From: Actinopolyspora lacussalsi subsp. righensis
GTDB lineage: Bacteria > Actinomycetota > Actinomycetes > Mycobacteriales > Pseudonocardiaceae
Length of the DNA stretch: 64,000 bases
Direction of reading: 5' to 3'
Assembly: GCF_900116555.1 (NCBI RefSeq)
Contig: NZ_FPAT01000010.1
Span: 62,001-126,000, forward strand
The notes beneath the pieces were generated by a model that saw only the letters and a list, made by a program, of their open reading frames with translations, did not search any database and had not been told where the DNA came from. Every line of letters starts with the position of its first letter. Within the stretch, counting starts at the first letter, position 1. Positions 12,327 to 27,838 of this stretch are shown here, one piece after another. The translations under genes were made by a program, and so were the position numbers.

Positions 12327-13394
12327 GTGATTATCTCCGGGTTTTCCGTGATTTCCTCCTACGGTATCGGCTTCTCCGCATTCGAGTCGGGAATCGGTGA
12401 CGAACGATGCGCGCTGTCCACAATTGATTCGGATGACGGTGGATCCGTTCCCGGGGTGGGGCGGGTCCCGGAATTCGACGTGCGTTCCGTGCTCGGCGAC
12501 GACTCCGTCAAAATCGACAGGCTGGGCAGGCCAGCTGCCCTGGCGATGGGAACCGTCGGATTGCTGCTCGACGAGTACGACACCGAAAATACTGTCGCCG
12601 AGCGACGTGGCATCGTGCTGGGCGGTGCCATGATGACGGCGGATCGGTCGATGAGCATCATGCGGGAGTCACTGACCGGAGCGGCGCCGTACCACGTGGA
12701 TCCCAAGCTGCTGCCCGGCAGCGCGATGAACTATCCGAGTTCGCAGTGCGCGATCCGCTACGGCCTCAAGGGACTCAACTCGACCGTGACCACGGGCAGG
12801 CTCACCGGGCTCTCCGCTCTCAACTACACGCGGCGGATGCACGCGCGTGGCCGCGCGGACGTCGTCCTGGCAGGCGCGGTCGAGGATCTCAACCAGCAGC
12901 GTTGTCGCCTGGTCGGGCAGGCTCACGGGCAGCGTCGCTCACCGCTCGGTGAAGGCGCGTGCGTCTTCCTGACCGAATCCGAGGAGTCCGCCCGGCGACA
13001 CGGTCGCTCGAACCTGGTCGAGGTTCTCTCGCTCGAGTTCGGGACGGCGACGTCGGTGGAGTCGGTGGGTGAGGTGCTGGCCCACCGGATCACGAGGGCA
13101 CTGCACCGTTCCGGACTGGTCGCCGAGGACGTGTGGGCCGTCGCCGTGTCCGCCCCGGACGGCCCCGCGCGGATCGAGGAGTTGAACGCCGTCAGCACCA
13201 CGATCCGTGACCAGCCCAGGGTGTTCGCCGTCGATCACCTGATCGGCGATACCGATGGGGCGTCCAGCTGTTTCCAACTGCTGGGCGGACTCGTCCGGGC
13301 GAGACGCGATCCGGTTCCGGGCGGAAACATTCTTCTCGTCACTTCGGTGGATCCCGATGGGCAAGTCGGCTGCGGATTGTTCCGTATCCACTGA
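12327..13394 (+). CDS. chain-length-factor-like ketosynthase partner (orphan)
   Basis: A 355-residue thiolase-fold protein of the type II PKS KS-beta/CLF kind. NYPSSQCAIRYGLKGLN precedes the nucleophile elbow, where STVTTGRLTG replaces the usual TACSSG, so the active-site Cys is absent. The C-terminal part retains the fold but lacks the HGTGT and GH-type His motifs. CLFs heterodimerise with a KS and set chain length. It is similar to the CLF at 25446 and may pair with the KS at 26579, which otherwise lacks a partner. The start is GTG 12327 after GGGCGGG. It is the first gene of the PAL/ligase/isomerase operon. Confidence 0.75.
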   Translation: MIISGFSVISSYGIGFSAFESGIGDERCALSTIDSDDGGSVPGVGRVPEFDVRSVLGDDSVKIDRLGRPAALAMGTVGLLLDEYDTENTVAERRGIVLGGAMMTADRSMSIMRESLTGAAPYHVDPKLLPGSAMNYPSSQCAIRYGLKGLNSTVTTGRLTGLSALNYTRRMHARGRADVVLAGAVEDLNQQRCRLVGQAHGQRRSPLGEGACVFLTESEESARRHGRSNLVEVLSLEFGTATSVESVGEVLAHRITRALHRSGLVAEDVWAVAVSAPDGPARIEELNAVSTTIRDQPRVFAVDHLIGDTDGASSCFQLLGGLVRARRDPVPGGNILLVTSVDPDGQVGCGLFRIH

Positions 13395-13446
13395 TGTCCC
13401 GGAAAGAAATTCTTCACGGAGAACGAACAGTTACGCAGGGGCGCGC

Positions 13447-15060
13447 ATGACACAATCGCTCGTTCCGTGCCAGCACGTCGGCAGCACGACGCTGGACGGT
13501 CACGACGTGGCACTCGAAGACATCGTCCGCCTCGCCCGGGACCCGCGGGCCGGGACAGTGGAACTGTCCGAGTGGGCCAGGCAGCGGATCGCCGGATCCG
13601 ACGAATTCAAACACCAGCTCATCGACACCGGAGTGCCCATCTACGGAGTGACCTCGGGCTTCGGTGACAGCAACACTCGCCAGATCTCCAAACGGAAGTC
13701 CGGTGCGCTGCAGCACAGCCTGGTCCGTTTCCTCTCCTGCGGTACCGGGCCGTACGCGACACACGATGTGATCAGGGCGACCATGATCGTGCGGGCGAAC
13801 TGCCTGGCGAGGGGATGGTCGGGCGTGCGTCCGGAACTGGTCCAGCTCCTGGTGGACTGCATCAACGAGCGGATCCTCCCGCGGATTCCGGAACGGGGAT
13901 CCGTGGGTGCCAGCGGCGACCTGGTCCCGTTGGCCTATTTGGCGGGAATGCTGACCGGCGAGTCGACCGTCTGGCATCGCGAGGAGAGCAAACCGGCGTG
14001 GCAGGCGCTACGCGAATCCGGGCTGGAGCCGGTGTCGCTGGCGCCGAAGGAAGGGCTGGCGCTGGTCAACGGCACTTCGTTCATGTCCGGCTATGCCGTG
14101 TTGGCCGCGCACGACGCCGAACAGCTGGCCTACGCGGCCGAGGTGTGCACCGCGCTCGCTTCCCAGGTGCTGCTCGGAAACCCCGGACACTTCGCCGGTT
14201 TCCTGGCCGAGCAGAAGCCGCACCCGGGGGTGATCACCAGTGCCGAGACCGTCCGGAACATGCTGGTCGACGAGGCGGAGTACCTGGCCGGGCAGTCCGA
14301 AGCGGCTCCGGACGTGGACTTCCGGGTTCTGGAACGACCCATCCAGGATCGCTACTCGGTCCGTTGCTGTCCGCACGTCGCCGGGGTGCTGCGGGACACG
14401 GTCGACTGGGTGAACAAGTGGCTCGCGGTCGAGGTGAACTCCTCCAACGACAATCCGCTTTTCGACGTGCAGCACTCGGTCGTCCGCAACGGGGGCAACT
14501 TCTACGGCGGCCACGTCGGACAGGCCATGGACTCACTGAAGACGGCCGTCGCCAGTGTCGCCGACATGCTGGATCGGCAGCTCGAACTGGTCGTCGACGA
14601 GAAGTTCAACAACGGTCTTACTCCGAATCTGGTGCCCAGGACGGAAGCCGAGGACTACGAGGCCGGGCTGTGCCACGGGTTCAAGGGAATGCAGCTCACG
14701 GCCTCCGCCCTCACCGCCGAGGCGCTCAAGCTGACCAATCCCGCGACTTCGTTCTCGCGCTCCACCGAAGCCCACAACCAGGACAAGGTCAGCATGGGCA
14801 CCATCGCCGCGCGCGACGCCCGTTCGGTGGTGGAGCTCGCCCAGCAGGTCACCGCGATTCACCTGATCGCGTTGTGCCAGGCCGTGGATCTTCGCGGAAC
14901 CGAGGTGCTCACCAACGCCACTCGCGCGGTTTACGAACGGGTCCGCGGTGTGTCGGACTTCCTCGAGTGGGACAGGCCGCTGGACAGCGACATCGAGGCA
15001 GTGACCTCACTGATCACTTCCGGGCAGCTGCGCACCGCCGCGTTCGAAGGAGGTGCGTGA
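13447..15060 (+). CDS. MIO-dependent aromatic amino acid ammonia-lyase, PAL-like
   Basis: A 537-residue member of the HAL/PAL/TAL superfamily. The self-forming MIO cofactor triad is A155-S156-G157 in GSVGASGDLVPLAYLAG, and the catalytic Tyr lies in YGVTSGFGD. The selectivity pair in LQHSLVRFLSCG is F95-L96; Phe-Leu marks Phe-specific enzymes, whereas His-Leu marks Tyr lyases and Ser-His histidases. I therefore predict Phe to trans-cinnamate plus ammonia. A 2,3-aminomutase giving beta-Phe is the main alternative. The start is ATG 13447; an upstream extension overlaps the CLF gene out of frame. It abuts the CoA-ligase gene (TGATG), which supports a cinnamate to cinnamoyl-CoA route as in EncP/EncN of enterocin. 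Confidence 0.85.
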   Translation: MTQSLVPCQHVGSTTLDGHDVALEDIVRLARDPRAGTVELSEWARQRIAGSDEFKHQLIDTGVPIYGVTSGFGDSNTRQISKRKSGALQHSLVRFLSCGTGPYATHDVIRATMIVRANCLARGWSGVRPELVQLLVDCINERILPRIPERGSVGASGDLVPLAYLAGMLTGESTVWHREESKPAWQALRESGLEPVSLAPKEGLALVNGTSFMSGYAVLAAHDAEQLAYAAEVCTALASQVLLGNPGHFAGFLAEQKPHPGVITSAETVRNMLVDEAEYLAGQSEAAPDVDFRVLERPIQDRYSVRCCPHVAGVLRDTVDWVNKWLAVEVNSSNDNPLFDVQHSVVRNGGNFYGGHVGQAMDSLKTAVASVADMLDRQLELVVDEKFNNGLTPNLVPRTEAEDYEAGLCHGFKGMQLTASALTAEALKLTNPATSFSRSTEAHNQDKVSMGTIAARDARSVVELAQQVTAIHLIALCQAVDLRGTEVLTNATRAVYERVRGVSDFLEWDRPLDSDIEAVTSLITSGQLRTAAFEGGA

Positions 15061-16874
15061 TGACTCTCGCGACCTTCACGCACCACGACGTCCTGGACGA
15101 GGAACGGCCGGACGGCACGCGGGTGCTGCGCACCGCGGAACCACTGGCCGCGCACCCGGACTCGCTCGGCGAGGTACTCCGGTACTGGGCGGAGCGCACC
15201 CCCGATCGGGTCCTGGCCGCCGAGCGGGACTCCACGGGACAATGGTGTTCGTCGAGCTATGCCGACAGCTCGGCCCGCGCCCTGCGTATCGCCGCCTCGC
15301 TGCTCGATCGAGGGCTGGACGGCACACGTCCGGTGATGGTGCTGTCCGGAAACTCGCTCGAACATCTGATGATCACGCTCGCCTGCTACACCGTCGGCAT
15401 CCCGGTTGTGCCGGTCAGCGTCGCCTACTCGCTGCGCTCCGGTGACCACGAGCGGTTGCGGGCCATTACGGAACTCGTCACGCCCGGGGCGGTGTACGCC
15501 GAGGACGGTGAGACCTACCGGCAAGCACTTCGCACGGTGGTATCCGCCACGGCGGGAGGCTGCGTCCCCGTCGTTTCGCGTTCCCCGGGGGAAGGGCAGC
15601 TCAGCTACGAGGAACTGTGTGACACCGAACCCGCCGAGGCGGTGTGGCGGGCACGTCGGGCGGTCACTCCGGAGACCGTGGCCAAGATCCTTTTCACATC
15701 CGGATCCACCGGTACGCCGAAGGGGGTGCGCAACACTCATCGGATGTTGTGCGCCAACCAGCAGATGCTGCGGCAGATATGGCCGTTCCTGGCGGAGGAA
15801 CCACCGGTACTCACCGATTGGCTGCCCTGGAGTCACACCTTCGGCGGCAACCACAATCTCCACCTGGCGCTCTACAACGGCGGCAGCATCCACCTGGACG
15901 ACGGCAAACCGAGCGATGCGGACTTCGAACGCACGATCGAAGCCCTGCGAGACGTTCCTCCGACCATCTGCGTGAACGTGCCCTCCGGTTATGCCATGTT
16001 GGCCGATCGCGTGGAACGCGATCCCGCGCTCGGTGAGCGGATCTTCTCCGCGGCGAGGATCCTGCTCTACGCCGGCGCGGACATGCCGGGGGAACTCCGT
16101 ACCCGGCTGGCGAGGCTCGCGAGCACCACCAGCGGGCGCGACATAGCCGTGGTGTCCTCGTGGGGAGCGACCGAAACGGGACCCGCGGCCACCTCGACCC
16201 ACGGGCGGGCCGAGTCCGGGATCGGCATTCCGCTTCCCGGCGTCTCGGTCAAGCTCGTACCGCACGGGACCGGGCTGGAAACCCGGGTGCACGGTCCCTC
16301 GGTCACTCCTGGCTACCTCGGCGGTCGATCGCTGGACCTCGACGAGGAGGGGTACTACCGCACGGGTGACCTCACTCGGTTCGTCGACGAGAACGTCCCC
16401 GGCCGGGGGTTGGTGTTCGAGGGCAGGGCGGCCGAGAACTTCAAGCTGAGCAACGCCACCTGGATATCCACGGCGCGAGTACGCCGCTCCCTGTTGGACG
16501 CGACCGCCCTCATCACCGATGTCGTACTGCTCGGTACGAATCGGCCTTACGTCGTGGCACTCGGTTGGATCAGCCTGGATCAGGCGAACGAGTTGCTGGG
16601 AACCTCCTCCTCCGACATCGCCGAGCTGCTCGGGCACGAGACGCTGCGAAAGGCGCTGGCCGAGGCCCTGCGAGAGGCCAACGCGGAGTCGGCTCCCTCC
16701 GCACGAGTGCGACGGTTCCTGCCGCTGGCCGGTCCGCCTCGGATCGAGGCGGGCGAGATCACCGACAAGGGTTATGTGAACGCGACCGCCGTCGTCGACA
16801 ACCGGGCAGAACTCGTCGAGGCGCTGTACCGGGACCACGTTGCCCCATCGGTGGTCACCCCGATCGGAGAGTGA
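15060..16874 (+). CDS. feruloyl-CoA-synthetase-like aryl acid ligase
   Basis: A 604-residue ANL-superfamily adenylating enzyme. Core motifs are the P-loop FTSGSTGTPKGV, SWGATETGPAATST, YYRTGDLTRF and EGRAAENFKLSNATWIS. The C-terminal GEITDKGYVNATAV, with its catalytic Lys, is characteristic of feruloyl-CoA synthetases (Fcs). It should activate cinnamate or another phenylpropenoic acid as the CoA thioester, or load it on the ACP. The ATG at 15060 overlaps the PAL stop by one base, so expression is coupled and the lyase product is the natural substrate. It would provide the aromatic primer for the ketosynthases. No aryl-ring hydroxylase is seen in the window. Confidence 0.85.
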   Translation: MTLATFTHHDVLDEERPDGTRVLRTAEPLAAHPDSLGEVLRYWAERTPDRVLAAERDSTGQWCSSSYADSSARALRIAASLLDRGLDGTRPVMVLSGNSLEHLMITLACYTVGIPVVPVSVAYSLRSGDHERLRAITELVTPGAVYAEDGETYRQALRTVVSATAGGCVPVVSRSPGEGQLSYEELCDTEPAEAVWRARRAVTPETVAKILFTSGSTGTPKGVRNTHRMLCANQQMLRQIWPFLAEEPPVLTDWLPWSHTFGGNHNLHLALYNGGSIHLDDGKPSDADFERTIEALRDVPPTICVNVPSGYAMLADRVERDPALGERIFSAARILLYAGADMPGELRTRLARLASTTSGRDIAVVSSWGATETGPAATSTHGRAESGIGIPLPGVSVKLVPHGTGLETRVHGPSVTPGYLGGRSLDLDEEGYYRTGDLTRFVDENVPGRGLVFEGRAAENFKLSNATWISTARVRRSLLDATALITDVVLLGTNRPYVVALGWISLDQANELLGTSSSDIAELLGHETLRKALAEALREANAESAPSARVRRFLPLAGPPRIEAGEITDKGYVNATAVVDNRAELVEALYRDHVAPSVVTPIGE

Positions 16875-16882
16875 GGAACGAA

Positions 16883-17584
16883 ATGCCGGAGGAACCACAG
16901 GCGAAGTTCTTCTTCTCGTTGCGCAGTCCGTACTCGTGGCTCTCCTATCTGCGGTTCGTCGAGTGTCACGGGGATCTGGTTCACAAGCTGCGGTGGATCC
17001 CCACCTGGGAGCCGGACGGGTCCACCGAGAGTGCGTTGCGCGCCGTGGGCGGTTCGGTCGTCTACACGGAGATGTCCCGTGCGAAGAACCTCTACATCCT
17101 GCGCGACGTCACGCGCCGCACCCGGGAATCCGGTACTGCGATGAAGTGGCCGCTGGACAGGCAGCCGGTGTGGGAGGTGCCGCATCTGGCGTACCTGCGT
17201 GCCCACGATCACGGGCGCGGAGCCGAGTACGTGGCGGCGGCGTATCGAGCTCGATGGGAACAGGGACGCGACATCTGCGATCGCTCGACGGTGGCCGAGA
17301 TCGGCGAATCGCTGGGGCTGGATCCGGACGAGCTGGCCACCGCCTCGGACGATCCCGGGTTGCGCGAGCGCGGGGTACGGTGCTTGCTGGAAGTCGGGGC
17401 CGAGGAGGTCTTCGGAGTGCCGTTCTTCGTCACCGGTTCCGCCCGCTTCTGGGGAGTGGACCGCTTGGAGGAGTTCGTCGAGGAGGTCCGCTCTCCCCGG
17501 GTGTCGTCCGGGAGCACGGCTGACGACGAGTCGGGGCGAGTCACGTGGACCCTGGACTACGGTCACGCCGGGGGGTGTGGCTGA
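16883..17584 (+). CDS. DsbA/HCCA-isomerase-like protein 1
   Basis: A 233-residue thioredoxin-fold protein of the DsbA / 2-hydroxychromene-2-carboxylate isomerase group: FFFSLRSPYSWLSY at the start, VPFFVTGSARFWGVDRLEEF (cis-Pro and C-terminal region) at the end. The residue corresponding to the catalytic Ser of HCCA isomerases is S15 in RSPYSW. Proteins of this type recur in cinnamoyl-lipid and polyene type II PKS clusters, where they are implicated in cis/trans double-bond isomerisation. The start is ATG 16883 after GTGAGGA. It shares ancestry with the second copy at 23405 (both have a VWEVPHLAYL/RWEVPHLAYL segment and a YRARWE segment). Confidence 0.75.
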   Translation: MPEEPQAKFFFSLRSPYSWLSYLRFVECHGDLVHKLRWIPTWEPDGSTESALRAVGGSVVYTEMSRAKNLYILRDVTRRTRESGTAMKWPLDRQPVWEVPHLAYLRAHDHGRGAEYVAAAYRARWEQGRDICDRSTVAEIGESLGLDPDELATASDDPGLRERGVRCLLEVGAEEVFGVPFFVTGSARFWGVDRLEEFVEEVRSPRVSSGSTADDESGRVTWTLDYGHAGGCG

Positions 17585-17672: not shown

Positions 17673-17921
17673 TCATCCCATCTCGCGGTCCACGACGGTG
17701 TAGACGCTTTCCAGGTTCACCAGTCGCGGCAGCTCGGACTGGTCGATGGTTATGCCGAATTCCTTTTCGAGGGAGGCCAGAATCTCTATGGCTCGCAGCG
17801 AGTCCGCCTCGTGGTCCTCGATGAACAGGCTGGTGTCGGTTACTTCCCCCTGATCGAGTTCGAGGACCTCGCACACGAGTTCCTTGATCCGAGCGTGGCG
17901 CTCGTTCACCGAAGTCGTCAT
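17673..17921 (-). CDS. acyl carrier protein
   Basis: An 82-residue four-helix ACP. The phosphopantetheine Ser is S41 in EADSLRAIEILASLEKEFGI, close to the canonical DSL motif. It starts at ATG 17921 and is transcribed against its neighbours, ending at a strong shared terminator. It is the only free-standing carrier protein in the window, so it should carry the growing acyl chain for all ketosynthases and deliver it to the starter condensation domain of the NRPS. The activating phosphopantetheinyl transferase is not in the window. Confidence 0.9.
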   Translation of the reverse strand: MTTSVNERHARIKELVCEVLELDQGEVTDTSLFIEDHEADSLRAIEILASLEKEFGITIDQSELPRLVNLESVYTVVDREMG

Positions 17922-18404: not shown

Positions 18405-19559
18405 ATGACGGTGGGAATAACCGGTCTCGGCGCGGTGGCCGGTGTCGGCACCGATGTCGACACCGTTTTCGAGGAGCTCAGCTCGGGACGGGACGCCCTC
18501 GCGGAGATGCGTGGATTCGACCGGACCAGGTACAACGCGCAGCGGTTGTTCGAGATAGACGATCGTCCCGCGCCCGGAGCGGACGTGCCGCGACGTGCGA
18601 CCGGATTCCTGCTGCGGGTCGTCGAGGAAGCCCTCGCCGATGCCGGGATCGACCTCGACGGTTCGTACCCGGGACCGACCGGGATCCCGGTGCTGGTCGG
18701 AACCGGCCTCCGCGAGCTGCGCTCCGCCGAGCTCTGGTGGCGCGGCGAGGCCGAGTTCCGGGCCGAGCACCTGCACTTCGGCACAGCACTCCGCCGACGG
18801 CTGGGAGCGGCCGACACGCACACCCTCTCCGGTGCCTGTTCGGCTTCGCTGTACGCGCTCGCGCTGGGCACCGATCTGATCGAACTGGGAGAGGCCGAAA
18901 CCGTCGTCGTGGCGGGTGCCGATGTGATCACCGAGAGCATGTTCGGCCTCACCGACAGGTTCCAACCGGTGCCGACCGAAGGACTGCGCCCGTTCGATCA
19001 GGAACGGAAGGGCGCCATCATGGGGGAGGGCGCCGCCGCGGTGGTGCTGCGCGCATCCGACCCGGTCGGTGCCGGTCCCCGAGCCTCGGTGCGTTCGGTG
19101 GGGATCAACTGCGACGCGCACCACGTAACCGCCCCGGATCCGGACGGTGTGGCGGAGAGCATTCGTCAGGCGCACCGGCGAGCGGCAGTAGAACCCTCCG
19201 AAGTGGACATGGTGATGCTGCACGCCACCGGCACTCCGATGAACGACAAGGTGGAGGCCGAGTCGCTGCACCGGGTGTTCGGGGGCAGCGTCGGTCGGCC
19301 GCTGGTGACCGGCATCAAGTCGATGACCGGGCACACCTCCGGCTCCGCCGGTCTGCTCGGTCTGGTCACGGCGGTGCGCTCGCTGGAAACGGGTGTGGTT
19401 CCACCGATCACGGGATTGACCACGCCGACGCCGGAAGCCGAGGGGATCCGGCTGGTGAGCGAGCGGTCGGCCACCGAGTCGATGTCGTTGGCACAGGTGC
19501 ACGCCTTCGGCTTCGGCGGTGTGAACGCCGTGGCGATCCTGGAGGTGGCGGGCCGATGA
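18405..19559 (+). CDS. ketosynthase alpha (type II PKS), copy 1
   Basis: A 384-residue beta-ketoacyl-ACP synthase with an intact triad: Cys145 in LSGACSASLYA, His in MLHATGTPMND and His in SMTGHTSGSAG. It performs decarboxylative Claisen condensation on ACP-bound chains. Start ATG 18405 after GAAGGAG was preferred over longer upstream frames. The next gene, a Cys-less partner, overlaps by four bases (ATGA), the classic KS/CLF arrangement. This pair is more distant from the KS at 24208 and 26579 than those two are from each other, so it may act at a different chain length or step. Confidence 0.85.
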   Translation: MTVGITGLGAVAGVGTDVDTVFEELSSGRDALAEMRGFDRTRYNAQRLFEIDDRPAPGADVPRRATGFLLRVVEEALADAGIDLDGSYPGPTGIPVLVGTGLRELRSAELWWRGEAEFRAEHLHFGTALRRRLGAADTHTLSGACSASLYALALGTDLIELGEAETVVVAGADVITESMFGLTDRFQPVPTEGLRPFDQERKGAIMGEGAAAVVLRASDPVGAGPRASVRSVGINCDAHHVTAPDPDGVAESIRQAHRRAAVEPSEVDMVMLHATGTPMNDKVEAESLHRVFGGSVGRPLVTGIKSMTGHTSGSAGLLGLVTAVRSLETGVVPPITGLTTPTPEAEGIRLVSERSATESMSLAQVHAFGFGGVNAVAILEVAGR

Positions 19560-20494
19560 ACGTGATCACGGGAACGTTTCCGATGCTGCCGGGGGTTTCG
19601 GAAGCGGCCGATCTGCTGACCCGGCAGCCGACCGGCGACCGTGTCGATCCGGCCGCCGTCCTCGGAAGGAAGGGACTGCGCTACAAGGACCGTGCGACGA
19701 CCCTGGGGTTGGCCACCGCGCTGCTGACACTGCGGGACGCCGAGCTGCTCGGTGACGACGGCGAGGTCGATCCGGCCACAGCGGTGGTGATCAGCTCGAA
19801 CTTCGGGAATCTGGACACCGTCTGTCGGGTGGCTCGGACCATAGCGGACGAGACCACCCGTGGGGTGAGTCCGATGGACACCGCGAACGCGTCCAGCAAC
19901 GTGATCGCCTCCGAGATCGCGATCAGGTTCGGGCTGCGCGGGCCGAACCTGACGCTGTGCAACGGCCCCACCTCCGGGCTGGACGCCGTGCGGTGGGCGA
20001 GTCTGCTGCTGCGGGCCGAACGGGCCGATCGGGTTCTGGTACTCGGAGCGGAACCGGACAACGAGACGGTGCGCTCCCTCACGGGGAGACAACGGTGTCT
20101 CGACGGCGCGGCCGGGATGGTCCTGGAACGCGTCGAGGCGGCGCGGGAGCGCGGCGCGCGGACGCGCGCGGGGTTGGTGAGCTGTGTCCGTTCGTCGGGC
20201 GTGTCCGAATGCCTCGAACTGCTGGGCGGGAACGCCCGAACTCGGCCCGACCTGTGGTTGGTGCCGGAAACGGACGGTGAATCGCTACCGGAGTGGTTGT
20301 TGCCGGGAGTGGCGCGAACCGATCTCTCCACCACCTGGGGGTCGGCCTCGGGCGCGCTCGGGGTGCTGCAGTGCGTGGCCGCCGTGGGCCGGTTCGACTC
20401 GGGAACGCACGGATCGGTCCATGCCGTAGCCGGAAGTGACGCGGACGACGCGAGCGCGGGCGTCGTCCTGGAGTCGGCGGGAGAGTACCGGTGA
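19556..20494 (+). CDS. chain-length-factor-like partner of KS copy 1
   Basis: A 312-residue KS-like protein, translationally coupled to KS copy 1. At the nucleophile elbow LTLCNGPTSGLDA aligns with TLSGACSASLYA of its partner, putting Pro where the catalytic Cys should be. The C-terminal His motifs are missing and the protein is about 70 residues shorter than a full KS. This fits a CLF or a reduced KS subunit that shapes the pocket. The alignment is by eye. TANASSNVIASEIAIRFGLRGPN is the conserved stretch before the elbow. Confidence 0.75.
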   Translation: MNVITGTFPMLPGVSEAADLLTRQPTGDRVDPAAVLGRKGLRYKDRATTLGLATALLTLRDAELLGDDGEVDPATAVVISSNFGNLDTVCRVARTIADETTRGVSPMDTANASSNVIASEIAIRFGLRGPNLTLCNGPTSGLDAVRWASLLLRAERADRVLVLGAEPDNETVRSLTGRQRCLDGAAGMVLERVEAARERGARTRAGLVSCVRSSGVSECLELLGGNARTRPDLWLVPETDGESLPEWLLPGVARTDLSTTWGSASGALGVLQCVAAVGRFDSGTHGSVHAVAGSDADDASAGVVLESAGEYR

Positions 20495-21405
20495 AAGGCG
20501 AAGAACCGGAACCGATCGAATCATCGGAGCGGGGAAACGGTGCCGAAGCGGCCGTGCGACTGCATCGGACGGGGGAGACGGAACGTCCGCGTCGCCGCGT
20601 GCTGCTGCTGCACGGACTGTCCAACAGCGCGGCGGTGTGGAACGCCGTGTCGCGGGGTTGGCCGGAGGACACCGAGGTTTGGGCGGCCGATCTGCCCTGG
20701 CGGGGTGGCTTCGACGCGACGTGGTCGTTGACCGGAGACTCCTCCCGGTGGCTACGTACGGCGATGGGACTCGTTCCCGGTGGGCTCGATCTGGTGGTGG
20801 CCCACTCGTTGTCCGCCAGCCTGCTGCTGGACGCGTTGGGCAACGGTTCGCTCGATCCCGCCGAGTACGCCGCATCCGGTCCCGGAGACGTCGAACCGTG
20901 CCGGCGGAGACCACCGGGAACCATGTTCGTCTCCCCCTTCTACCGTCCCGATCCCGGCGATTTCGAGTGGGAGTCCATCGCGAGCTCGCTGCACGATTTC
21001 GAACGAACGATCCGGGACGGCATCCGACTGCACGCGGGAGGGCGCCTCTCCGACGAGAAGTCGGAGGAGCTCGGACGACTGATGTGCCGCAAGATCGGGC
21101 CCTACGGCTGGTTGAGCTTTTTCAACCTGTATCTGAGCACCCCCTGGCTGCTCACCGAGCGGATCACCTCGCCGTGTCGGGTGCTGGTCGGCGATTCCGA
21201 CGCGGCAGCTCCTCCGGAGGAGGGATTCCGGCTGGCCGAGAACCTGCCGGACGCGAGTGCTCGGTCGCTTTCCGACTGCGGTCACTTCCCGATGATCGAG
21301 GCTCCCGAGGAGTTCGTAGCCGTCGCGAGTCGATTCCTGGCCGAACTGGACGACACAGGGGCTCCGCGAGCCGTCCCCGAAACACTGAACGAGGTGAGCG
21401 CATGA
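20491..21405 (+). CDS. alpha/beta hydrolase
   Basis: A 304-residue alpha/beta-hydrolase-fold protein. The oxyanion region is LLLHGLSNSAAVW, the nucleophile is S106 in VVAHSLSAS (an AxSxS variant of GxSxG), the Asp is in VLVGDSDAA and the His in SDCGHFPMIEAPEEF. A full triad is present. It may be an editing or releasing type II thioesterase for ACP-bound intermediates, or tailor the acyl chain. GTG 20491 overlaps the CLF stop (GTGA), so it belongs to the same operon. Its substrate cannot be deduced. Confidence 0.75.
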   Translation: MKGEEPEPIESSERGNGAEAAVRLHRTGETERPRRRVLLLHGLSNSAAVWNAVSRGWPEDTEVWAADLPWRGGFDATWSLTGDSSRWLRTAMGLVPGGLDLVVAHSLSASLLLDALGNGSLDPAEYAASGPGDVEPCRRRPPGTMFVSPFYRPDPGDFEWESIASSLHDFERTIRDGIRLHAGGRLSDEKSEELGRLMCRKIGPYGWLSFFNLYLSTPWLLTERITSPCRVLVGDSDAAAPPEEGFRLAENLPDASARSLSDCGHFPMIEAPEEFVAVASRFLAELDDTGAPRAVPETLNEVSA

Positions 21406-22466
21406 CCGCCGTACCGACTTCGAGTACACCGGAAACCACCGAGCACGACTCCGACGGGCGATGGGACGAAGCCGTCCGGACACTGCTGGAGACCAGCGGC
21501 AGTACCCGATCGCGTCCCGGCTACGAGGGGTGCACCGTCAGTACCTCGCTCGGTTTCCGACACATCAACTACCTGGCGGAGGCCGCGGTGCTGGAGCACT
21601 TCCGCTCCGCCGGGCTGGCTCCGGGGATGCTCTACGACGAGTTCGGGCTCGGGTTGGACGTCGTCCACATCGACACTCGGTTGCCGAAGAACCTGCACGT
21701 GGACGATCTGGCCACACTGTTCGTCAAGCCGGTGCACACTCCGGACGACACGCGGATGCGGTTCGACGTCACCTCCACGGTCTCCCGTGCGGGGCGGTCC
21801 GTCACCAATGCCAGGAGCACACTCGAAGTGCTGCTGCGGGTGGAGCCCGGTGTCGACGCGCGGTTAACCGTGCCGGCCGGGCTCAAGCGGTTCGTGACCG
21901 AGCGACTGGGCACGGCCGAGCCGGTCGAACTCACCGTGGACCCGGCGCCGCGTCCGGATCTCGGCTCGGGACGCGGCACCACGGTGGGCCGGGACTCCCG
22001 GAGGGATCCCGTGCTGGACGAGTTGATCGGTGAGAACAACGCGTTCGGGTGGAAGTGGCGAGTGCCCTACTTCTACTGTCACTTCGGTGATCGGATGCCG
22101 ATGTCCGGTTTCCTGCGGCAGCTCGAGGAAGTCGTCGATCTGTTCCTCGCGGATCGGGGACTCGACGTCAAACGCGTGTTGGACGAACGGCACTGGATTC
22201 CGGTGGTGACCCACTCGCGGCTCGACCTGCTGGACGAAGTGCGGATGGAAGAGGACCTCTACACCGTCTACACCGTGGAGGAGGTGTTCAAGAGCCTGCT
22301 CTACACCTCGCGGATGGACTGTTACGTGGTTCGTGACGGGCGGCTGGTGCCCACCGCCACCGGGCGAATCACGCACGGTTACATGACCCAGCGGTCCAAC
22401 GGAACGTGGGAGCTGGTCACCTTCGACGAACCGACGCTGCGCGCCCTGTCCGGAGAACACCGGTGA
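21402..22466 (+). CDS. double-hotdog dehydratase/thioesterase-like protein
   Basis: A 354-residue protein with the look of two fused hotdog domains. The first half contains FRHINYLAEAAVLEHFR and VTSTVSRAGRSVTNARSTLEV; the second contains MPMSGFLRQLEEVVDLFL and VFKSLLYTSRMDCYVVRDGR. Hotdog proteins in type II polyene clusters act as dehydratases or thioesterases on ACP-bound beta-hydroxyacyl chains, but I cannot point to a certain catalytic residue. ATG 21402 overlaps the hydrolase stop (ATGA). The gene has one in-frame TTA codon (21864-21866), implying dependence on the rare bldA leucyl-tRNA. Confidence 0.55.
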   Translation: MTAVPTSSTPETTEHDSDGRWDEAVRTLLETSGSTRSRPGYEGCTVSTSLGFRHINYLAEAAVLEHFRSAGLAPGMLYDEFGLGLDVVHIDTRLPKNLHVDDLATLFVKPVHTPDDTRMRFDVTSTVSRAGRSVTNARSTLEVLLRVEPGVDARLTVPAGLKRFVTERLGTAEPVELTVDPAPRPDLGSGRGTTVGRDSRRDPVLDELIGENNAFGWKWRVPYFYCHFGDRMPMSGFLRQLEEVVDLFLADRGLDVKRVLDERHWIPVVTHSRLDLLDEVRMEEDLYTVYTVEEVFKSLLYTSRMDCYVVRDGRLVPTATGRITHGYMTQRSNGTWELVTFDEPTLRALSGEHR

Positions 22467-22509: not shown

Positions 22510-22911
22510 GTGAACAGCACGATCCGGACCTCGGTCTCGCCCGTAACGGCACCGGTGCGGTTGGACGAGCCCGCGGAGCTCGGCCACCCGGTACGCGCGG
22601 AGATCGATGTCGCGCCCGAGGAACCGGTCTTCGCCGGCCACTACCCCGGTTTCCCCGTCTTCCCCGGGGTGTGCGTTCTCGACCTCGTGCACCGGACGGC
22701 GGTGCGGGCGGGGCCGCCGGGACGGAGCGTAAGGCTGAACGGAGTGCGCAGCGTCAAATTCGGCGCCGCGGTGTACCCCGGTGATCACCTGACGATCGAG
22801 CTGCGTTGGACCGAACCGACCGGACGGGAAGAGCCCTGGTCGGTATCCGCCTCGGTCCACCGTGCCGAGCTCGCCGTGGCCAACATGCGGTTGTCGTACC
22901 GGGAGGAGTAG
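22510..22911 (+). CDS. FabA/FabZ-like dehydratase subunit carrying the catalytic His
   Basis: A 133-residue single hotdog protein. VFAGHYPGFPVFPGVCVLD reproduces the FabZ/FabA active-site strand: H44 is the catalytic His, and D58 occupies the acid position (Asp as in FabA rather than Glu as in FabZ). It should dehydrate 3-hydroxyacyl-ACP to the enoyl form during polyene assembly. GTG 22510 follows a GGGAG site. The next gene, two bases downstream, encodes a second hotdog that lacks the His, suggesting an obligate heterodimer. Confidence 0.8.
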   Translation: MNSTIRTSVSPVTAPVRLDEPAELGHPVRAEIDVAPEEPVFAGHYPGFPVFPGVCVLDLVHRTAVRAGPPGRSVRLNGVRSVKFGAAVYPGDHLTIELRWTEPTGREEPWSVSASVHRAELAVANMRLSYREE

Positions 22912-22913
22912 TC

Positions 22914-23375
22914 GTGCTGTCCGTCCAACGGATCCGTGCCCTGCTGCCGCACCGCTATCCGATGCTGCTCGTCGACCGGGTCGTCGAGGCGGTACCGGGC
23001 GAGAGGCTCGTGGCGCGCAAGGCGGTCACGATCAACGAGCCTTGCTACGCCGATGTCGCGGACGACACGGACCCGAGGTACCCCGCCTCGTTGCTCGTCG
23101 AGTCCTGGGGGCAGTCGGCCGCGCTGCTCGCCGCGCTCGGTGGTGAACGAGCCGGAGGATTCGGTGACAAAGTGTTGCTGTTCGGCTCCATGGCCGGAGC
23201 GGAGTTCCACGGCGACGTCCATCCCGGCGACGTGCTGGAGCATCACGTCTCGCTCTCCCGCGAAGCGGGCGACACGTTGTTGTTCGAAGGACACACCGAA
23301 GTGAGCGGCAACCGAGTGTTCGAGTTGGAACGCGCCGTGCTGGCCCTGCGCCCCTCGGAAGGGGTGCTCGGCTGA
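22914..23375 (+). CDS. FabZ-like dehydratase subunit lacking the catalytic His
   Basis: A 153-residue FabZ homolog: LLPHRYPMLLVDRVVEA near the N-terminus is a FabZ hallmark. The active-site strand reads NEPCYADVADDTDPRYPASLL instead of NEPFFQGHFP-type sequence, so the catalytic His is gone, while Glu63 in LLVESWGQSAALL is kept. In FabZ dimers each active site takes His from one chain and Glu from the other, so this chain could complement the preceding subunit. GTG 22914 starts two bases after the previous stop, with GGGAGGAG upstream. Confidence 0.75.
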   Translation: MLSVQRIRALLPHRYPMLLVDRVVEAVPGERLVARKAVTINEPCYADVADDTDPRYPASLLVESWGQSAALLAALGGERAGGFGDKVLLFGSMAGAEFHGDVHPGDVLEHHVSLSREAGDTLLFEGHTEVSGNRVFELERAVLALRPSEGVLG

Positions 23376-23404
23376 CCGGCCGGAATGTGAACTGCGAGGA
23401 GAAC

Positions 23405-24019
23405 GTGAACACGAACGGCAACCGAGCTCGCTGGTATTTCTCGTTCCACAACCCGTACTGCCGGTTCGCGTTCGAGGAGCTGAGCGAATCCTTCCCGGAA
23501 CGGTTCCGAGCGATCGAGTGGTTGCCGGTGTGGGACACCGCGGACACCGCGCGGCGATGCGGGCGGCGAGTCGAGCTGCCCGTGGGTGAGATGTCGGCCG
23601 CCAAGGAGCGCTATGTGTGGCAGGACGTGAGTCGGATCGCTCAAAAGCGTGGTTTGACGATGACCCGGCCGAGCGGGGGATCGGGGCGTTGGGAGGTCCC
23701 CCACCTGGCCTATCTCGTCGCCGAACGCCACGGTCGTGGTGTGGAGTTCGCCGGCGCGGTTTACCGGGCCCGATGGGAGTGTGGCCGCGATGTGTGCGCC
23801 ACGGAGGAGATAAGCGGTATCGCCGAGGAGTTCGGCTTCGGTTCGGAGGTGCGACGTGCCGTTTCCGACGATGCCCTCCTGAACGAACGGGCCGGGAGTG
23901 TTCTCGAACGGGCGGAACGCGACGGCGTGTTCGGCACCCCCTTCTTCGTCGTCGGTAGGGAGAAGTTCTGGGGTGTGGAATGGCTACGGAGCTTCGCCGC
24001 GATGTTGGGTGATGGCTAG
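23405..24019 (+). CDS. DsbA/HCCA-isomerase-like protein 2
   Basis: A 204-residue paralog of the protein at 16883, with the same thioredoxin-fold layout: WYFSFHNPYCRFAFEEL at the N-terminus, RWEVPHLAYLVAERHGRG in the middle, and FGTPFFVVGREKFWGVEWL at the end. The catalytic-Ser position of HCCA isomerases is Asn16 here (HNPYC instead of SPY). It may act as a heteromeric partner of copy 1 or have different chemistry. The start is uncertain: GTG 23405 follows GAGGAG at short spacing, GTG 23387 is six codons longer. Confidence 0.7.
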   Translation: MNTNGNRARWYFSFHNPYCRFAFEELSESFPERFRAIEWLPVWDTADTARRCGRRVELPVGEMSAAKERYVWQDVSRIAQKRGLTMTRPSGGSGRWEVPHLAYLVAERHGRGVEFAGAVYRARWECGRDVCATEEISGIAEEFGFGSEVRRAVSDDALLNERAGSVLERAERDGVFGTPFFVVGREKFWGVEWLRSFAAMLGDG

Positions 24020-24089: not shown

Positions 24090-24207
24090 GCAATTCCGGA
24101 GTCGTGGGACGGAGTGCGTACCTAGACTTCGTGCCGACCCCGACGCACGGACCGATCACTCGGTTCGGAGTGGACCGGCGGCACTCCGATCGGCGACTGG
24201 AGTTGTG

Positions 24208-25449
24208 ATGACTTTTCCGGCTCGTGACGACACCGGTGAGCGGGTCGTGGTGACAGGTATGGGAGTGGTGTCTCCCACCGCCACCGAGTTGGCCGACTAC
24301 GTCGCGGCGTTACGAGCCGGACGTACCGGTGCCGCCCCGATCACCGGCTTCGATACCACCGGTTTCGATCACCCGGTCGGCTGCGAGGTGAACGGTTTCC
24401 GGCCCGAGCGATGGATTCGGCGCCTACCTGTCGAACGACTCGGCCGAGCGGCGCGTTTCGCGGTGGCCGCTGCTCGGATGGCTGTGCGCGATGCGCGGCC
24501 GTCCGAGGACACGCTCCGTGGTGATGGGGTGATCTCGGTAGGTACCACCAACGGTGGCGGGCCGCAGCTCGAACGTCTCGTGGAAACCGAGGCGCTGCCC
24601 GGTGGGGGAGCTCGCGATCCACTGCCGACCGGGACGGTTCTCCCGCACAACCTCGCCACTTCGATCTCGCAGGAGTTGGACCTGCCCTCGGCGCTCCCGT
24701 CCGTGCTGGGCACGGCGTGTGCGGCTGGTAATCACGCCATCGGTGAGGGCGTCGACGCGGTTCGCTCCGGCGTTGCCGAGTTCGCGCTCTGCGGGGGAGC
24801 CGATGCCATGAGCCGCAAACTGTTCAGCGGATTCTCGCGGCTGGGATTACTGGCACCCGACGCGTGCCGCCCGTTCGACAGCAACAGGGCGGGCATCCTC
24901 CTCTCGGAAGGGGCGGGGATGCTCCTGCTGGAGAGCAGGCGTGCCGCACTGGCGCGCGGTGCTCCCATCCACGCCGAGGTGCTCGGTTACGGGCTCAACT
25001 GCGACGCCCTGCATCCCGTCGCACCCGACCGGGCGAGCGTCGCCTCCTGCACTCGTACGGCCCTGCGGGACGCGGGGATCTCTCCTCGGGACGTCGATCT
25101 CATCTCGGCGCACGGCACCGGAACCGGTCGTAACGACGTCACCGAGGCGGGAGCGGTGCTCGACGTGTACGGCGAGACACCGCCGCCGACCGTTTCGGTG
25201 AAGTCGATGCTGGGGCACGCCATGGGAGCGGCGAGTGCGCTGGCGGCGATAGCGTGTGTCTCCGCGATCACCCACGGGTTCGCCCCGCCCACCATCAACC
25301 ACCGGGAGCTCGACCCGGAGTGCCCGATCGACTGCGTACCCAACCGTGCGGTGGAAGCCGATCTACGGATAGTGCAGAGCAACGGGCTGGCCTTTGGTGG
25401 CAGCAACGCCGTCGTGATCTTCGGAGAACACGACGGGAGGACACGATGA
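24208..25449 (+). CDS. ketosynthase alpha, copy 2
   Basis: A 413-residue KS with an intact triad: Cys in VLGTACAAGNHA, His in SAHGTGTGRND, His in SMLGHAMGAASA. VVVTGMGVVSPTA at the N-terminus is typical of FabF-like KS. The start is ATG 24208 with GGAG five bases upstream. It is coupled by ATGA overlap to the CLF at 25446 and is closely related to KS copy 3. Two in-frame TTA codons (24310-24312 and 24847-24849) make its translation sensitive to bldA tRNA supply. It probably extends the polyene chain on the discrete ACP. Confidence 0.9.
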   Translation: MTFPARDDTGERVVVTGMGVVSPTATELADYVAALRAGRTGAAPITGFDTTGFDHPVGCEVNGFRPERWIRRLPVERLGRAARFAVAAARMAVRDARPSEDTLRGDGVISVGTTNGGGPQLERLVETEALPGGGARDPLPTGTVLPHNLATSISQELDLPSALPSVLGTACAAGNHAIGEGVDAVRSGVAEFALCGGADAMSRKLFSGFSRLGLLAPDACRPFDSNRAGILLSEGAGMLLLESRRAALARGAPIHAEVLGYGLNCDALHPVAPDRASVASCTRTALRDAGISPRDVDLISAHGTGTGRNDVTEAGAVLDVYGETPPPTVSVKSMLGHAMGAASALAAIACVSAITHGFAPPTINHRELDPECPIDCVPNRAVEADLRIVQSNGLAFGGSNAVVIFGEHDGRTR

Positions 25450-26582
25450 CCCCCGCCGCCGCACCCGGTGGACCTCCCTGTATCAGCGCCTGGTCAGCCC
25501 TGTCTCCCGGGGGAATCGGCCGCGCGGCTTTCGTCGACGGCCTGCGCGCCGCTGCCGGTGGTCCCACGAGTATCGAGTGGGAGTGGCCGTTGGACTCCTA
25601 CGGTCGAGCTCATCTCGTTCCCGGATTCGACATTCCCACGTTGTTGGGACGCAAGGGCGCTCGCTCACTTGATCGACTGACCGGGCTGGCGGCCGCCACC
25701 GTGAGTCGACTGCTGGGTGGCGATGCCGGGATGGCCGAGACCGATGGGGTCGGCCTGGTACTGGGCACCACGGCGGGCAGCTCGCAGAGTGCGATGGATT
25801 TCACCCGCCAGGGGCTCACCGGACGTAGGCCCCACGAGGTCGATCCGGCGCTGCTGCCGAACGCCATCATGAACCGTGCCGCCGCTGAGTGCGCCATTCG
25901 CCACGGTCTCACCGGCCCCAACACGACCGTCGCCGGTGGCCGGGTGGCCGGGCTGCTCGCGCTCGCCCAGGCGAGTCGGTTTCTCGGAGCGGGCAGAGCC
26001 GAGCGCGTCCTCGTCGGTGCCGCCGAGGAGTGCTCGCCGGCCAGGGTGTGGTTGTCCCGGCGTGACACGGATGCTGTGGCCCCTCCGGGCGAGGGCTGCG
26101 GGCTGCTGGTGCTGGATCGTCCCGACTCGACGGTAGCTCTGGCCGAGGAAGCGGGACGGGCCGAAGTGGTGGCGACGGAGACCAGAACGCGATTGCCGGA
26201 TGAGATCGGGACCGCGCTGACCGAGTGCGTGCACGCGCTGCTCGCTCGTTCCCGTACCGAACCGGCGGAGGTATGGGCCGCGGTGGGCAGCGGTGCGTCG
26301 GGCTCCCTCGGACTCCTGGAGACCCGGGCACTGCGAGGGGTGTTCGGCGACAGCGCGCTGGCCCGAGTGCCGAGCGTGGACCGCTTCGGTGAGCTCGACT
26401 CGGTGTCGAGCGTCTTCGCGATCCTGGCCGCACTCGTCTCCGCCGAACGGGAAACGGCGGTGCGGGAGAAAACCGCGGTGATCTGCGCGGTCGACCCCTG
26501 CGGTACGGCAGCGGCCACCCTGCTGCGGCTGTCGAACGGTCGGACCTCCGGCCACCCCCACGTGAAGGGAGAGGGAAGATGA
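25446..26582 (+). CDS. chain-length-factor-like partner of KS copy 2
   Basis: A 378-residue KS-beta. The elbow region NTTVAGGRVAGLLAL lacks Cys, and the C-terminal His motifs are absent. AIMNRAAAECAIRHGLTGPN matches the equivalent stretch of the orphan CLF at 12327, showing these two are paralogs. It is coupled to KS copy 2 by ATGA at its start and to KS copy 3 by ATGA at its end, so it could pair with either. Its role is pocket formation and chain-length control. Confidence 0.85.
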   Translation: MTPAAAPGGPPCISAWSALSPGGIGRAAFVDGLRAAAGGPTSIEWEWPLDSYGRAHLVPGFDIPTLLGRKGARSLDRLTGLAAATVSRLLGGDAGMAETDGVGLVLGTTAGSSQSAMDFTRQGLTGRRPHEVDPALLPNAIMNRAAAECAIRHGLTGPNTTVAGGRVAGLLALAQASRFLGAGRAERVLVGAAEECSPARVWLSRRDTDAVAPPGEGCGLLVLDRPDSTVALAEEAGRAEVVATETRTRLPDEIGTALTECVHALLARSRTEPAEVWAAVGSGASGSLGLLETRALRGVFGDSALARVPSVDRFGELDSVSSVFAILAALVSAERETAVREKTAVICAVDPCGTAAATLLRLSNGRTSGHPHVKGEGR

Positions 26583-27838
26583 CCACGTCCACGCCCGTCC
26601 CGCTGGACCGTGCGAACTCGACGCGGCGCGTCGTGGTCACCGGTCTGGGAGTTGTATCGAGCATCGGCAGCGGTCGCGAGGCGTATCTGGCTGGGCTGCG
26701 CGAGGGCAGGTGCGGTACCGGGCCGATATCGCTGTTCGACACCACGGGATTCCGGCACGGGAACGGCTGTGAGGTAACCGACTTCGATCCCGCGGAGGTG
26801 CTGCGTACCGTCCGTGCCGAGGAGTTCGGCAGGGTCGGTCGGTTCTCGGCGGCCGCTGCCAGAATGGCCGCGACGGACGCGGGACTTCCCGAGGGCCCGA
26901 CGGGATCCGGGCTAGTCGCGGTGGGAACCACGGATGGTGAGTCGCTCGATCTGGACGAGTTGGCGGCATCGTTCTCCGGATACGGTTCGTCCGACGGTGC
27001 GGAGTCGACCAGAGCGGGGCGGATTCGGCCGGCCCGCTTGTCCACGGCGGCGGCGCGTGAACTGGGACTGTCCGATGTCGAAGTGGTCACGATGCCCACC
27101 GTGTGCGCCGCGGGCAACTACACCCTCGGGTACGGACTGGACGCGCTTCGGGCAGGCGACGTCGACTTCGCGTTGTGTGGCGGGGCCGAGTCCGTCTGCC
27201 GCCGAACGTTCGCGTCGTTCTACCGGATGGGAGCGCTCTCTCCGGATCTGTGCAGACCGTTCGACCGGGATCGCGCCGGCGTGGTTTTCGGTGAGGGTGC
27301 GGCGGTCCTGGTACTGGAATCGCTCGAATCGGCGTCGGCCCGCGGGGCGCGGGTGTTGGCCGAGGTGCTGGAATACCACCTCAACTGCGACGCGATGCAC
27401 CCCACCAGACCCGATGAGGACAGCGTGACCGCGTGCGTGGCCGGCGCGGTGCGGAATGCGGGGATCTCCCCGGCGGAAGTCGACCTGGTCCTCGCGCACG
27501 GAACGGGAACCCCCATCAACGACTCCCTGGAGTCCAGGGCCTTCGGTCGCGTGTTCGGCTTCGACGGGATACCGCCGGTCTCGGCGCCGAAGTCGATGAT
27601 CGGTCACACCATGGGAGCCGCCGCCGCGCACAGTTGCACCGCCGCGGTTCTCGCGCTGGAGCACGGTTTTCTGCCGCCCACCGTCAATCACGGCACCACG
27701 GATCCGGACTGTCCGGTGGACTGCGTGCCGAACCGCTCCCGTGCCGCCGATCCGCGCACGATTCTGGTGAATTCCCTGGGTTTCGGTGGTGGCAACGCGG
27801 CGATGGTGCTACGGCGCTGGGAAGGTGGAGAGCCGTGA
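26579..27838 (+). CDS. ketosynthase alpha, copy 3
   Basis: A 419-residue KS with an intact triad: Cys in MPTVCAAGNYT, His in LAHGTGTPIND, His in SMIGHTMGAAAA. It shares long identical stretches with KS copy 2 (VVVTGLGVVS, CEV, CAAGN, the LNCDAMHP segment and the DCPVDCVPNR segment), so they arose by duplication. It is the last gene of the operon and starts by ATGA overlap. No CLF follows it; the best partner candidate is the orphan CLF at 12327. Confidence 0.9.
   Translation: MTTSTPVPLDRANSTRRVVVTGLGVVSSIGSGREAYLAGLREGRCGTGPISLFDTTGFRHGNGCEVTDFDPAEVLRTVRAEEFGRVGRFSAAAARMAATDAGLPEGPTGSGLVAVGTTDGESLDLDELAASFSGYGSSDGAESTRAGRIRPARLSTAAARELGLSDVEVVTMPTVCAAGNYTLGYGLDALRAGDVDFALCGGAESVCRRTFASFYRMGALSPDLCRPFDRDRAGVVFGEGAAVLVLESLESASARGARVLAEVLEYHLNCDAMHPTRPDEDSVTACVAGAVRNAGISPAEVDLVLAHGTGTPINDSLESRAFGRVFGFDGIPPVSAPKSMIGHTMGAAAAHSCTAAVLALEHGFLPPTVNHGTTDPDCPVDCVPNRSRAADPRTILVNSLGFGGGNAAMVLRRWEGGEP

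Follow-up and report, generated by a model that had tools for sequence, protein, structure and literature searches.

What does a phenylalanine ammonia-lyase (PAL) do inside a polyene-type type II polyketide synthase (PKS) cluster that sits beside a nonribosomal peptide synthetase (NRPS)? The question is raised by a 64,000-nucleotide stretch of the Actinopolyspora lacussalsi subsp. righensis genome (contig NZ_FPAT01000010.1; C4:62001-126000 within a 4.92 Mb genome), hereafter the window, in which a four-gene run encoding a chain length factor (CLFa), a PAL-like enzyme, a CoA ligase and an isomerase (ISO1) adjoins a type II PKS of the polyene type and an NRPS of six modules. With moderate confidence, we read this cluster as a pathway of the cinnamoyl-containing nonribosomal peptide (CCNP) type that gained a phenylalanine-derived starter module, with cinnamoyl-CoA as the predicted starter for a third ketosynthase (KS)/CLF pair, KS3/CLFa, and the resulting acyl chain passing to the hexapeptide assembly line at NRPS1. 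An initial annotation of the same DNA had proposed a discrete PKS primed by cinnamoyl-CoA and handing its product to the starter condensation (C) domain of a hexapeptide NRPS; this fits the clade formed by KS3/CLFa and the grouping of the first C domain described below, although most of the PKS turned out to be an ordinary CCNP set. Gene content, motifs, gene order, synteny, domain layout and clades are properties of the DNA itself and are reported as such.

The PAL gene (13447-15060, plus strand; ATG at 13447, stop at 15060, 537 amino acids) encodes a protein matching Pfam Lyase_aromatic at 534 bits; the PF00221 family has two copies in the genome, one in the window and one on another contig. 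In an alignment of 81 lyases, comprising the window enzyme and 80 loci from the PAL scan, we located both the A155-S156-G157 triad that marks a 4-methylideneimidazole-5-one (MIO) enzyme and the F95-L96 dyad, bearing out the annotation of an MIO lyase with phenylalanine-type selectivity residues. This dyad equals that of the aligned PAL 1w27, which is also the top PDB sequence match (286 bits). The dyad was F-L in 37 of the 81 lyases, Y-H in 38 and different in 6; a window-like ligase, counted at ≥43% identity and ≥250 bits, was present in the stretches of 13 of the 37 F-L rows (window included), 1 of the 38 Y-H rows and 1 of the 6 others. From its sequence, it is likely but not certain that the window lyase acts on phenylalanine. 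The enzyme scored 368 bits with the TIGR01226 phenylalanine ammonia-lyase model and did not reach its cut-off of 519; our guess is that this model is tuned to eukaryotic enzymes. Two lyase relatives were observed in passing: L014 (12742-14107) holds a lyase 43-70% identical to the PAL in three pieces, apparently frame-shifted by damage or assembly error in a genome that is 74% complete, and L081 of Streptacidiphilus jiangxiensis (3060-11572) carries a lyase 54% identical to the PAL about 4 kb beyond KS1-like, CLFb-like and ketoreductase (KR) genes, a stretch without a KS3-like KS and so a second, different neighbourhood of lyase and type II KS.

The ligase gene (15060-16874, plus strand) begins on the final base of the PAL stop codon, exactly the one-base overlap that had been described. 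Its product matches AMP-binding at 175 bits, and its best model is the acyl-CoA synthetase PRK12582 (636 bits, below the cut-off of 777), which we take to be feruloyl-CoA-synthetase-like; matches to solved ligase structures are weak, the best reaching 63 bits. No beta-oxidation families of the kind expected for an enterocin-type benzoyl starter were found among the scanned window proteins.

To the left of the PAL gene lies CLFa (12327-13394, plus strand), which has a ketoacyl-synt domain without KS motifs, and its presumptive partner KS3 (26579-27838, plus strand) retains the C-H-H motifs. Sequence identity with the neighbouring pair KS2/CLFc is 48% between KS3 and KS2 and 35% between CLFa and CLFc. 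The best PDB match of CLFa is 6kxd_B (158 bits) and that of KS2 is 6kxd (475 bits), an entry we take to be the ishigamide KS/CLF Iga11-Iga12; the ishigamide pair makes an alkyl polyene and is not known to involve a PAL. The PAL scan revealed five Actinomadura loci, in A. darangshiensis, A. sp. WMMA1423, A. mexicana, A. barringtoniae and A. macra, which hold within 10 kb a PAL, a ligase, a CLFa-like CLF and a KS 57-60% identical to KS3. KS3 grouped with these five KS in a tree of 44 rows (support 97/100), as did CLFa with the five CLF in a tree of 41 rows (100/100).

Because these five loci had come in through the PAL, we conducted a search led by KS3 in 250 genomes of the Actinomadura family (E≤1e-105), which matched 22 genomes, all of which were compared; most genome searches scored the best few candidates per genome, and KS3 matches were considered to E 1e-105. 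This search added one clade member, from Actinomadura kijaniata (G904/L050), with a ligase beside its KS and CLF. In the enlarged trees the clade comprised 7 of 47 KS rows and 8 of 43 CLF rows (both 100/99), and in a KS tree of 54 rows, KS3, the five Actinomadura PAL/ligase loci and A. kijaniata again formed one clade (100/100; recovered in 100% of 200 bootstrap trees). Outside the clade, the 47-row tree has 40 rows: KS2 from the window, plus 39 drawn from 38 stretches (14-41 kb) in which no PAL or ligase match of ≥50 bits occurred. A PAL at E≤1e-150 is present in 8 of the 250 genomes and reaches ≥62% identity in six; all 3 KS3-clade genomes among the 22 KS3-matching ones hold a PAL at ≥62% identity, as compared with 6/250 overall (hypergeometric probability 8e-6, rising to 3e-4 when the centre genome is left out; uncorrected for kinship).

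The remainder of the PKS resembles gene sets found widely elsewhere. KS3 matches at E≤1e-105 came from 17 of 394 genomes of the class, the window's genome included, and a plasmid search yielded 30 matching records, of which 25 were listed; the three plasmid records that were followed contained neither a PAL nor a ligase. Frequently, the genes near such matches formed a run of acyl carrier protein (ACP), KS2-like, KS1-like, CLFb-like, hydrolase, 4HBT-like, CLFc-like, two dehydratase, KR, DsbA-type isomerase and NRPS genes, with the ACP-KS2-like-KS1-like run full in L147 and L149 and partial or reordered in L134-L137 and L139. A second frequent run consisted of ACP, KS, CLF, KR, isomerase and NRPS (L129, L131, L138, L148). 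One of these, L148 (9656-41146, a Streptomyces sp. NBC_01243 plasmid), is a polyene-PKS/NRPS cluster with sbnA, sbnB, a tryptophan halogenase and anthranilate genes.

In the window, KS1 (18405-19559) falls into a 15-row clade of KS1-type rows (100/100), its partner CLFb, a short CLF (19556-20494), into a 13-row clade (100/100) and CLFc (25446-26582), the partner of KS2 (24205-25449), into an 11-row clade with CCNP-type CLFs (99/94), so that KS1, CLFb and CLFc all sit with CCNP-type loci. KS2 groups with L142 (97/94), a KS/CLF locus without an NRPS in its 20 kb, a grouping that was not starred in the 47- and 54-row trees. KS2 and CLFc (24205-26582) stand on long branches (0.7-0.96 and 1.04-1.22), and a changed substrate may be possible. 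Also present are an alpha/beta hydrolase (20491-21405) and a thioesterase-like 4HBT_2 protein (21402-22466), both of types known from CCNP-type loci, the FabA/FabZ-like dehydratase DHa (22510-22911) and the FabA-like dehydratase DHb (22908-23375), all of the genes named in this paragraph up to here being on the plus strand. The ACP gene (approximately 17673-17921, read from its open reading frame and sequence) lies on the minus strand and has homologues adjoining KS genes in many polyene-PKS loci, and a FabG-like KR is encoded at 60906-61646 (plus strand). The combination of ACP, KR, two dehydratases and an isomerase with an NRPS recurs in L136, L137, L147 and L149. The annotation of three KS genes, dehydratases and an ACP near the lyase was thus accurate as far as it went, but three CLF genes (CLFa, CLFb and CLFc) accompany them and the ACP gene runs the other way.

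Such a gene set has been described for cinnamoyl lipids and CCNPs in the excerpts available of three papers (PMC9381841, PMC6510318, PMC9321520), in which, for epoxinnamide, EpcS/P is the proposed chain starter and EpcR/Q the extender from C10 to C12. By gene order, and in a comparison by description rather than by sequence, KS2/CLFc would correspond to EpcS/P and KS1/CLFb to EpcR/Q. A third pair is known from youssoufene, where YsfJ/K is said to take ring-bearing intermediates, according to excerpts of PMC9321520/PMC9381841. The extra KS of L133, L140, L184, L186 and L189, whose gene order reads as the three-pair type, are only 36-42% identical to KS3. Most of the PKS, together with the starter C domain of the NRPS, matches the ordinary CCNP set, and the additions to that set are the PAL, the ligase, KS3/CLFa and a second isomerase.

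The two isomerases differ from one another. ISO1 (16883-17584 including the stop, plus strand), of the HCCA/DsbA type, matches the HCCA isomerase 3fz5 and carries the common RSPYS run, whereas in ISO2 (23387-24019, plus strand) HNPYC replaces it. In 31 aligned isomerase rows the first motif is RSP followed by Y in 23 and by F in 4 (27 in total, including ISO1), and HNPYC appears in the four ISO2 rows of the genus, in which the window gene is counted twice. The ISO2 rows lie on a long branch (1.39); ISO2 has lost the Ser-Pro run kept in the 27 non-ISO2 rows, yet three genomes of the genus retain it. ISO1 would accordingly appear to be the working isomerase, and ISO2 may be altered in role or activity. 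The operon previously described, with a CLF and a DsbA-like isomerase, is found as the run CLFa-PAL-ligase-ISO1, to which ISO2 must be added as a second DsbA-like gene further along.

The genes are syntenic in Actinopolyspora alba DSM 45004 (80-98% amino acid identity) and likewise in G652, the third Actinopolyspora genome (91-100%), and the gene set is therefore not a chance arrangement. The gene-order check in G204, of the same genus, extended over 23 window genes, with NRPS2 partial and nothing past NRPS2, and G652 was checked as well. CLFa was present in 3 of the 10 genomes of the genus searched and was not found in the genome labelled as the same species. Outside the genus, the five Actinomadura loci share PAL, ligase and KS/CLF, and their stretches give no isomerase match, homologues being located on other contigs in three of the five genomes.

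The peptide side of the cluster is encoded by NRPS1 (36438-45614, plus strand) and NRPS2 (45608-60487, start estimated, plus strand), which together hold six modules of C, adenylation (A) and thiolation (T) domains. NRPS1 is arranged as starter C-A-T-E-C-A-T-E and NRPS2, by its motifs, as C-A-T-E-C-A-T-C-A-T-C-A-T-TE, with epimerization (E) domains after modules 1, 2 and 3 and a thioesterase (TE) motif closing NRPS2. In the C-domain tree, the first one clusters with the opening C domains of L131, L138, L139, L143 and L149 (100/100, six rows), which places it among the starter C domains; the first NRPS genes of L147 and L148 begin without a C domain. The C domains of modules 2-4 group with those following E domains in other loci, and modules 5 and 6 have C domains that group with the ordinary type. 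All six A domains retain the Asp that binds the alpha-amino group, at the position where we take it to lie, and this disfavours a beta-amino acid supplied by an aminomutase. The A-domain codes, read by hand around the motifs, are DVFSVAIVY, DVWHISLVD, DALLIGAVA, DAYWWGGTF, DIWEMTADD and DLTKLGMVN for modules 1 to 6; with the code positions and meanings as we assume them, module 2 is Ser-like, module 4 Val-like, module 6 Asp-like and module 5 perhaps basic, with modules 1, 3 and 5 not called.

SbnA and SbnB are a family pair that makes 2,3-diaminopropionate, and the mutase genes are of a family that gives 3-methyl-aspartate. In the window, SbnB (32239-33261) and SbnA (33278-34357), both on the minus strand, score above the cut-offs of TIGR03944 (384 bits) and TIGR03945 (379 bits), respectively. 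A B12-binding protein taken as the glutamate mutase small subunit (61643-62137, plus strand; PF02310, 55 bits) is followed by the methylaspartate (glutamate) mutase E chain (62131-63441, plus strand; above the cut-off of PF06368 with 293 bits, below that of TIGR01503 with 172 bits). These genes point to 2,3-diaminopropionate and 3-methyl-aspartate as candidate residues, and the hexapeptide probably contains D-Ser, Val, Asp or 3-methyl-Asp, and 2,3-diaminopropionate.

From this inventory we infer the reactions, the starter role and the order in which the KS pairs would act. The PAL would convert phenylalanine to cinnamate and the ligase would activate cinnamate to cinnamoyl-CoA, which KS3/CLFa, acting with the ACP, KR and dehydratases, would elongate with malonyl units to a phenyl-polyenoyl-ACP. 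KS2/CLFc, KS1/CLFb and ISO1 would then extend the chain and set a Z double bond, and the starter C domain of NRPS1 would join the acyl chain to residue 1 of the hexapeptide. As the CCNP set is believed to form an aromatic ring on its own, the tail could bear two rings, or could be something other than an open aryl polyene. Tentatively, and with a low probability, KS3/CLFa could represent a branch of polyene type II PKSs dedicated to aryl-CoA starters that in Actinopolyspora feeds an otherwise complete CCNP pathway, giving a tail with two benzene rings, one coming from phenylalanine and the other formed by closure of the polyene (an ortho-styryl cinnamoyl group would be an example).

Several observations weigh against a phenylalanine-primed CCNP pathway. 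The cluster retains the ordinary CCNP set, which, according to the excerpts available of the CCNP papers, is believed to yield an aromatic acyl group by itself, without a PAL. The highest score of the PAL with a curated model goes to the BagA/FevW tyrosine ammonia-lyase, its best NCBIfam model, at 651 bits against a cut-off of 1000. The five Actinomadura loci with an adjacent PAL were located via the PAL; in A. kijaniata the PAL is on a different contig from the ligase-KS-CLF block, 6.7 kb from the contig end; and the A. darangshiensis ligase match is incomplete, covering residues 16-369 only. Three genomes (G840, G756 and G817), the rest of the six family genomes with a PAL at ≥62% identity, carry a PAL of the same branch yet gave no KS match. 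Four further genomes with a PAL (Streptomyces S465, Goodfellowiella, Streptomyces ODS25 and Streptomyces NRRL WC-3742) contributed 7 KS rows to the 54-row tree, all outside the KS3 clade; a PAL is therefore no marker for KS3. The two Actinomadura clusters examined closely, L043 and L044, are otherwise unlike the window in having a type I KS-AT, a type III PKS-like gene and an inositol synthase. In L043 and L044 (2290-21566), a separate acyltransferase, an inositol-1-phosphate synthase and a DegT aminotransferase were also observed beside the PAL-ligase-KS/CLF genes, and L046, L047 and L048, likewise from Actinomadura, resemble these two by BLAST.

Finally, the PAL and ligase trees do not follow those of KS3 and CLFa, as they set the window pair apart from Actinomadura. 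They agree with each other in placing it with the pairs of Streptomyces sp. S465, S. hygroscopicus and Amycolatopsis (PAL 100/94, ligase 100/100), and we rejected a single inherited PAL-ligase-KS3-CLFa cassette on the basis of this placement. Owing to the conflict between the two sets of trees, PAL-ligase and KS3/CLFa would have been joined more than once, or the PAL-ligase pair would have been replaced; if anything, the conflict favours a working link between the two. Adjacent PAL and ligase genes occur in other genera too. In Streptomyces sp. S465 (L031, 67-21541) they lie between genes with type I PKS motifs, an arrangement which suggests a type I PKS primed with a cinnamoyl unit, and no PKS was seen near the Amycolatopsis pair.

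Among the alternatives to a phenylalanine-primed polyene, the one that survives best, though we consider it rather unlikely, is that the acyl chain is a normal cinnamoyl lipid whose malonyl units are joined and then cyclised to a benzene ring, in the way put forward for skyllamycin or kitacinnamycin, and that cinnamoyl-CoA is used elsewhere, for example on the side chain of 2,3-diaminopropionate or on a peptide hydroxyl. KS2/CLFc, KS1/CLFb, the hydrolase, the 4HBT-like protein, the two dehydratases, the KR, ISO1 and the ACP each have a counterpart in L147, as this would predict. However, it leaves KS3/CLFa and their tie to the ligase and PAL unexplained, and the scanned window proteins included no recognisable acyltransferase other than the C domains of the NRPS, although the gene at 63438 has no known family. 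Alternatively, the PAL and ligase could prime the PKS with a substrate other than phenylalanine, such as coumaroyl-CoA from tyrosine. The match to the tyrosine lyase of bagremycin and ferroverdin speaks for such a substrate, but that score is under the model's cut-off, the F-L dyad is that of 1w27 and many related lyases have Y-H in its place; we regard this as improbable.

A direct loading of cinnamoyl-CoA from the PAL and ligase onto the NRPS, with the PKS making another compound or a second acyl group, appears less probable again. Streptomyces sp. NBC_00249 (L042) offers a parallel in a PAL beside an AMP ligase and an NRPS, with no type II KS/CLF within 10 kb, but the window has a single C domain of the starter group, which goes with polyene-PKS/NRPS loci, and CLFa shares a gene run with the PAL and ligase. 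In the least probable alternative, the MIO enzyme would act as an aminomutase and furnish the NRPS with a beta-aryl amino acid, or furnish an aryl amino acid that is used elsewhere: MIO lyases and aminomutases have a common fold and a tyrosine aminomutase (2rjr, 272 bits) is among the top PDB matches next to the PAL, but the three aminomutase models score 353, 348 and 253 bits against cut-offs of 501, 800 and 1250, the A domains keep their alpha-amino pockets and the ligase overlapping the PAL gene would be left without a role.

Downstream of KS3, the plus strand encodes a LuxR-type regulator with an ATPase domain (28030-30696) and another LuxR-type regulator (31133-32173). After the sbn genes come an ABC-2 transporter membrane protein (34446-35237) and an ABC transporter ATPase (35234-36439, start of the open reading frame uncertain), both on the minus strand. 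An MbtH-like protein (60484-60693, plus strand; an open reading frame with homologues in CCNP-type loci) follows NRPS2. The last gene (63438-63998, plus strand, continuing beyond the window) belongs to no Pfam family and has weak homologues in L143 and L149. Beyond it lie what, on inspection by eye, look like genes for a small membrane protein, a LysR-type regulator and a GuaB-like protein, which suggests that the cluster stops there.

Several parts of the proposed logic have precedents. In enterocin biosynthesis, a PAL and a ligase feed the starter of a type II PKS, the starter being benzoyl after chain shortening and the PKS an aromatic one; the window is alike in its supply of a starter by PAL and ligase and has no recognised chain-shortening genes. 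KS1 scored 194 bits with the model of AmcF and CLFb 41 with that of AmcG, the cispentacin pair, both below cut-off, and the AmcF match is not specific, as KS3 also scores 194 bits. AmcF-AmcG perform a single C2 elongation and close a five-membered ring, according to the excerpts available (PMC10698177), whereas KS1/CLFb belong to a polyene-type cluster. Likewise on the basis of excerpts, skyllamycin, kitacinnamycin and epoxinnamide, and the related lipids youssoufene and globisporamic acid, share with the window their polyene-type KS/CLF pairs, two dehydratases, KR, isomerase, ACP, LuxR pair and NRPS, and relative to the CCNP clusters the window adds the PAL, the ligase, KS3/CLFa and the diverged second isomerase. 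The words "ammonia" and "phenylalanine ammonia" do not occur in the excerpts of the CCNP papers (PMC9381841, PMC6510318, PMC9321520).

The initial annotation had known of no described pathway with this combination, a statement weakened by two reports, each available in part. Teredinibacter sp. 2052S carries the butuanimide cluster btm (PMC13151354, April 2026), which encodes the PAL BtmG and a CoA ligase proposed to provide a phenylalanine-derived starter; the authors of that report propose that a PAL was repurposed to supply the starter for an aryl-polyene type II PKS feeding an NRPS. The window likewise holds a PAL and CoA ligase in one cluster with discrete KS and an NRPS. Butuanimides, however, are gamma-proteobacterial products of an arylpolyene-type PKS with an andrimid-like Val-succinimide, whereas the window has CCNP-type KS/CLF, isomerases and a hexapeptide NRPS. 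In the flexirubin pathway of Chitinophaga pinensis, the ammonia-lyase FlxA and the CoA ligase FlxY, a tyrosine ammonia-lyase and 4-coumarate:CoA ligase pair, were characterised in vitro and begin an aryl polyene; it differs in that the lyase uses tyrosine and the polyene is esterified to a dialkylresorcinol (PMC3992019). No precedent for a CCNP version of a PAL-primed starter was found in the literature searched, which was mostly non-subscription and does not establish absence in print. The logic of PAL, CoA ligase, aryl-polyene PKS and NRPS is therefore known already, and what would be new is its combination of CCNP logic with an aryl-CoA starter module that has a KS/CLF clade of its own.

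If this reading is correct, a single pathway would join two routes to an aryl acyl tail, one from phenylalanine and one from a closed polyene. KS3/CLFa and their relatives would then constitute a recognisable KS/CLF clade for aryl-CoA priming, which could be of use in genome mining and in the engineering of lipopeptide tails.

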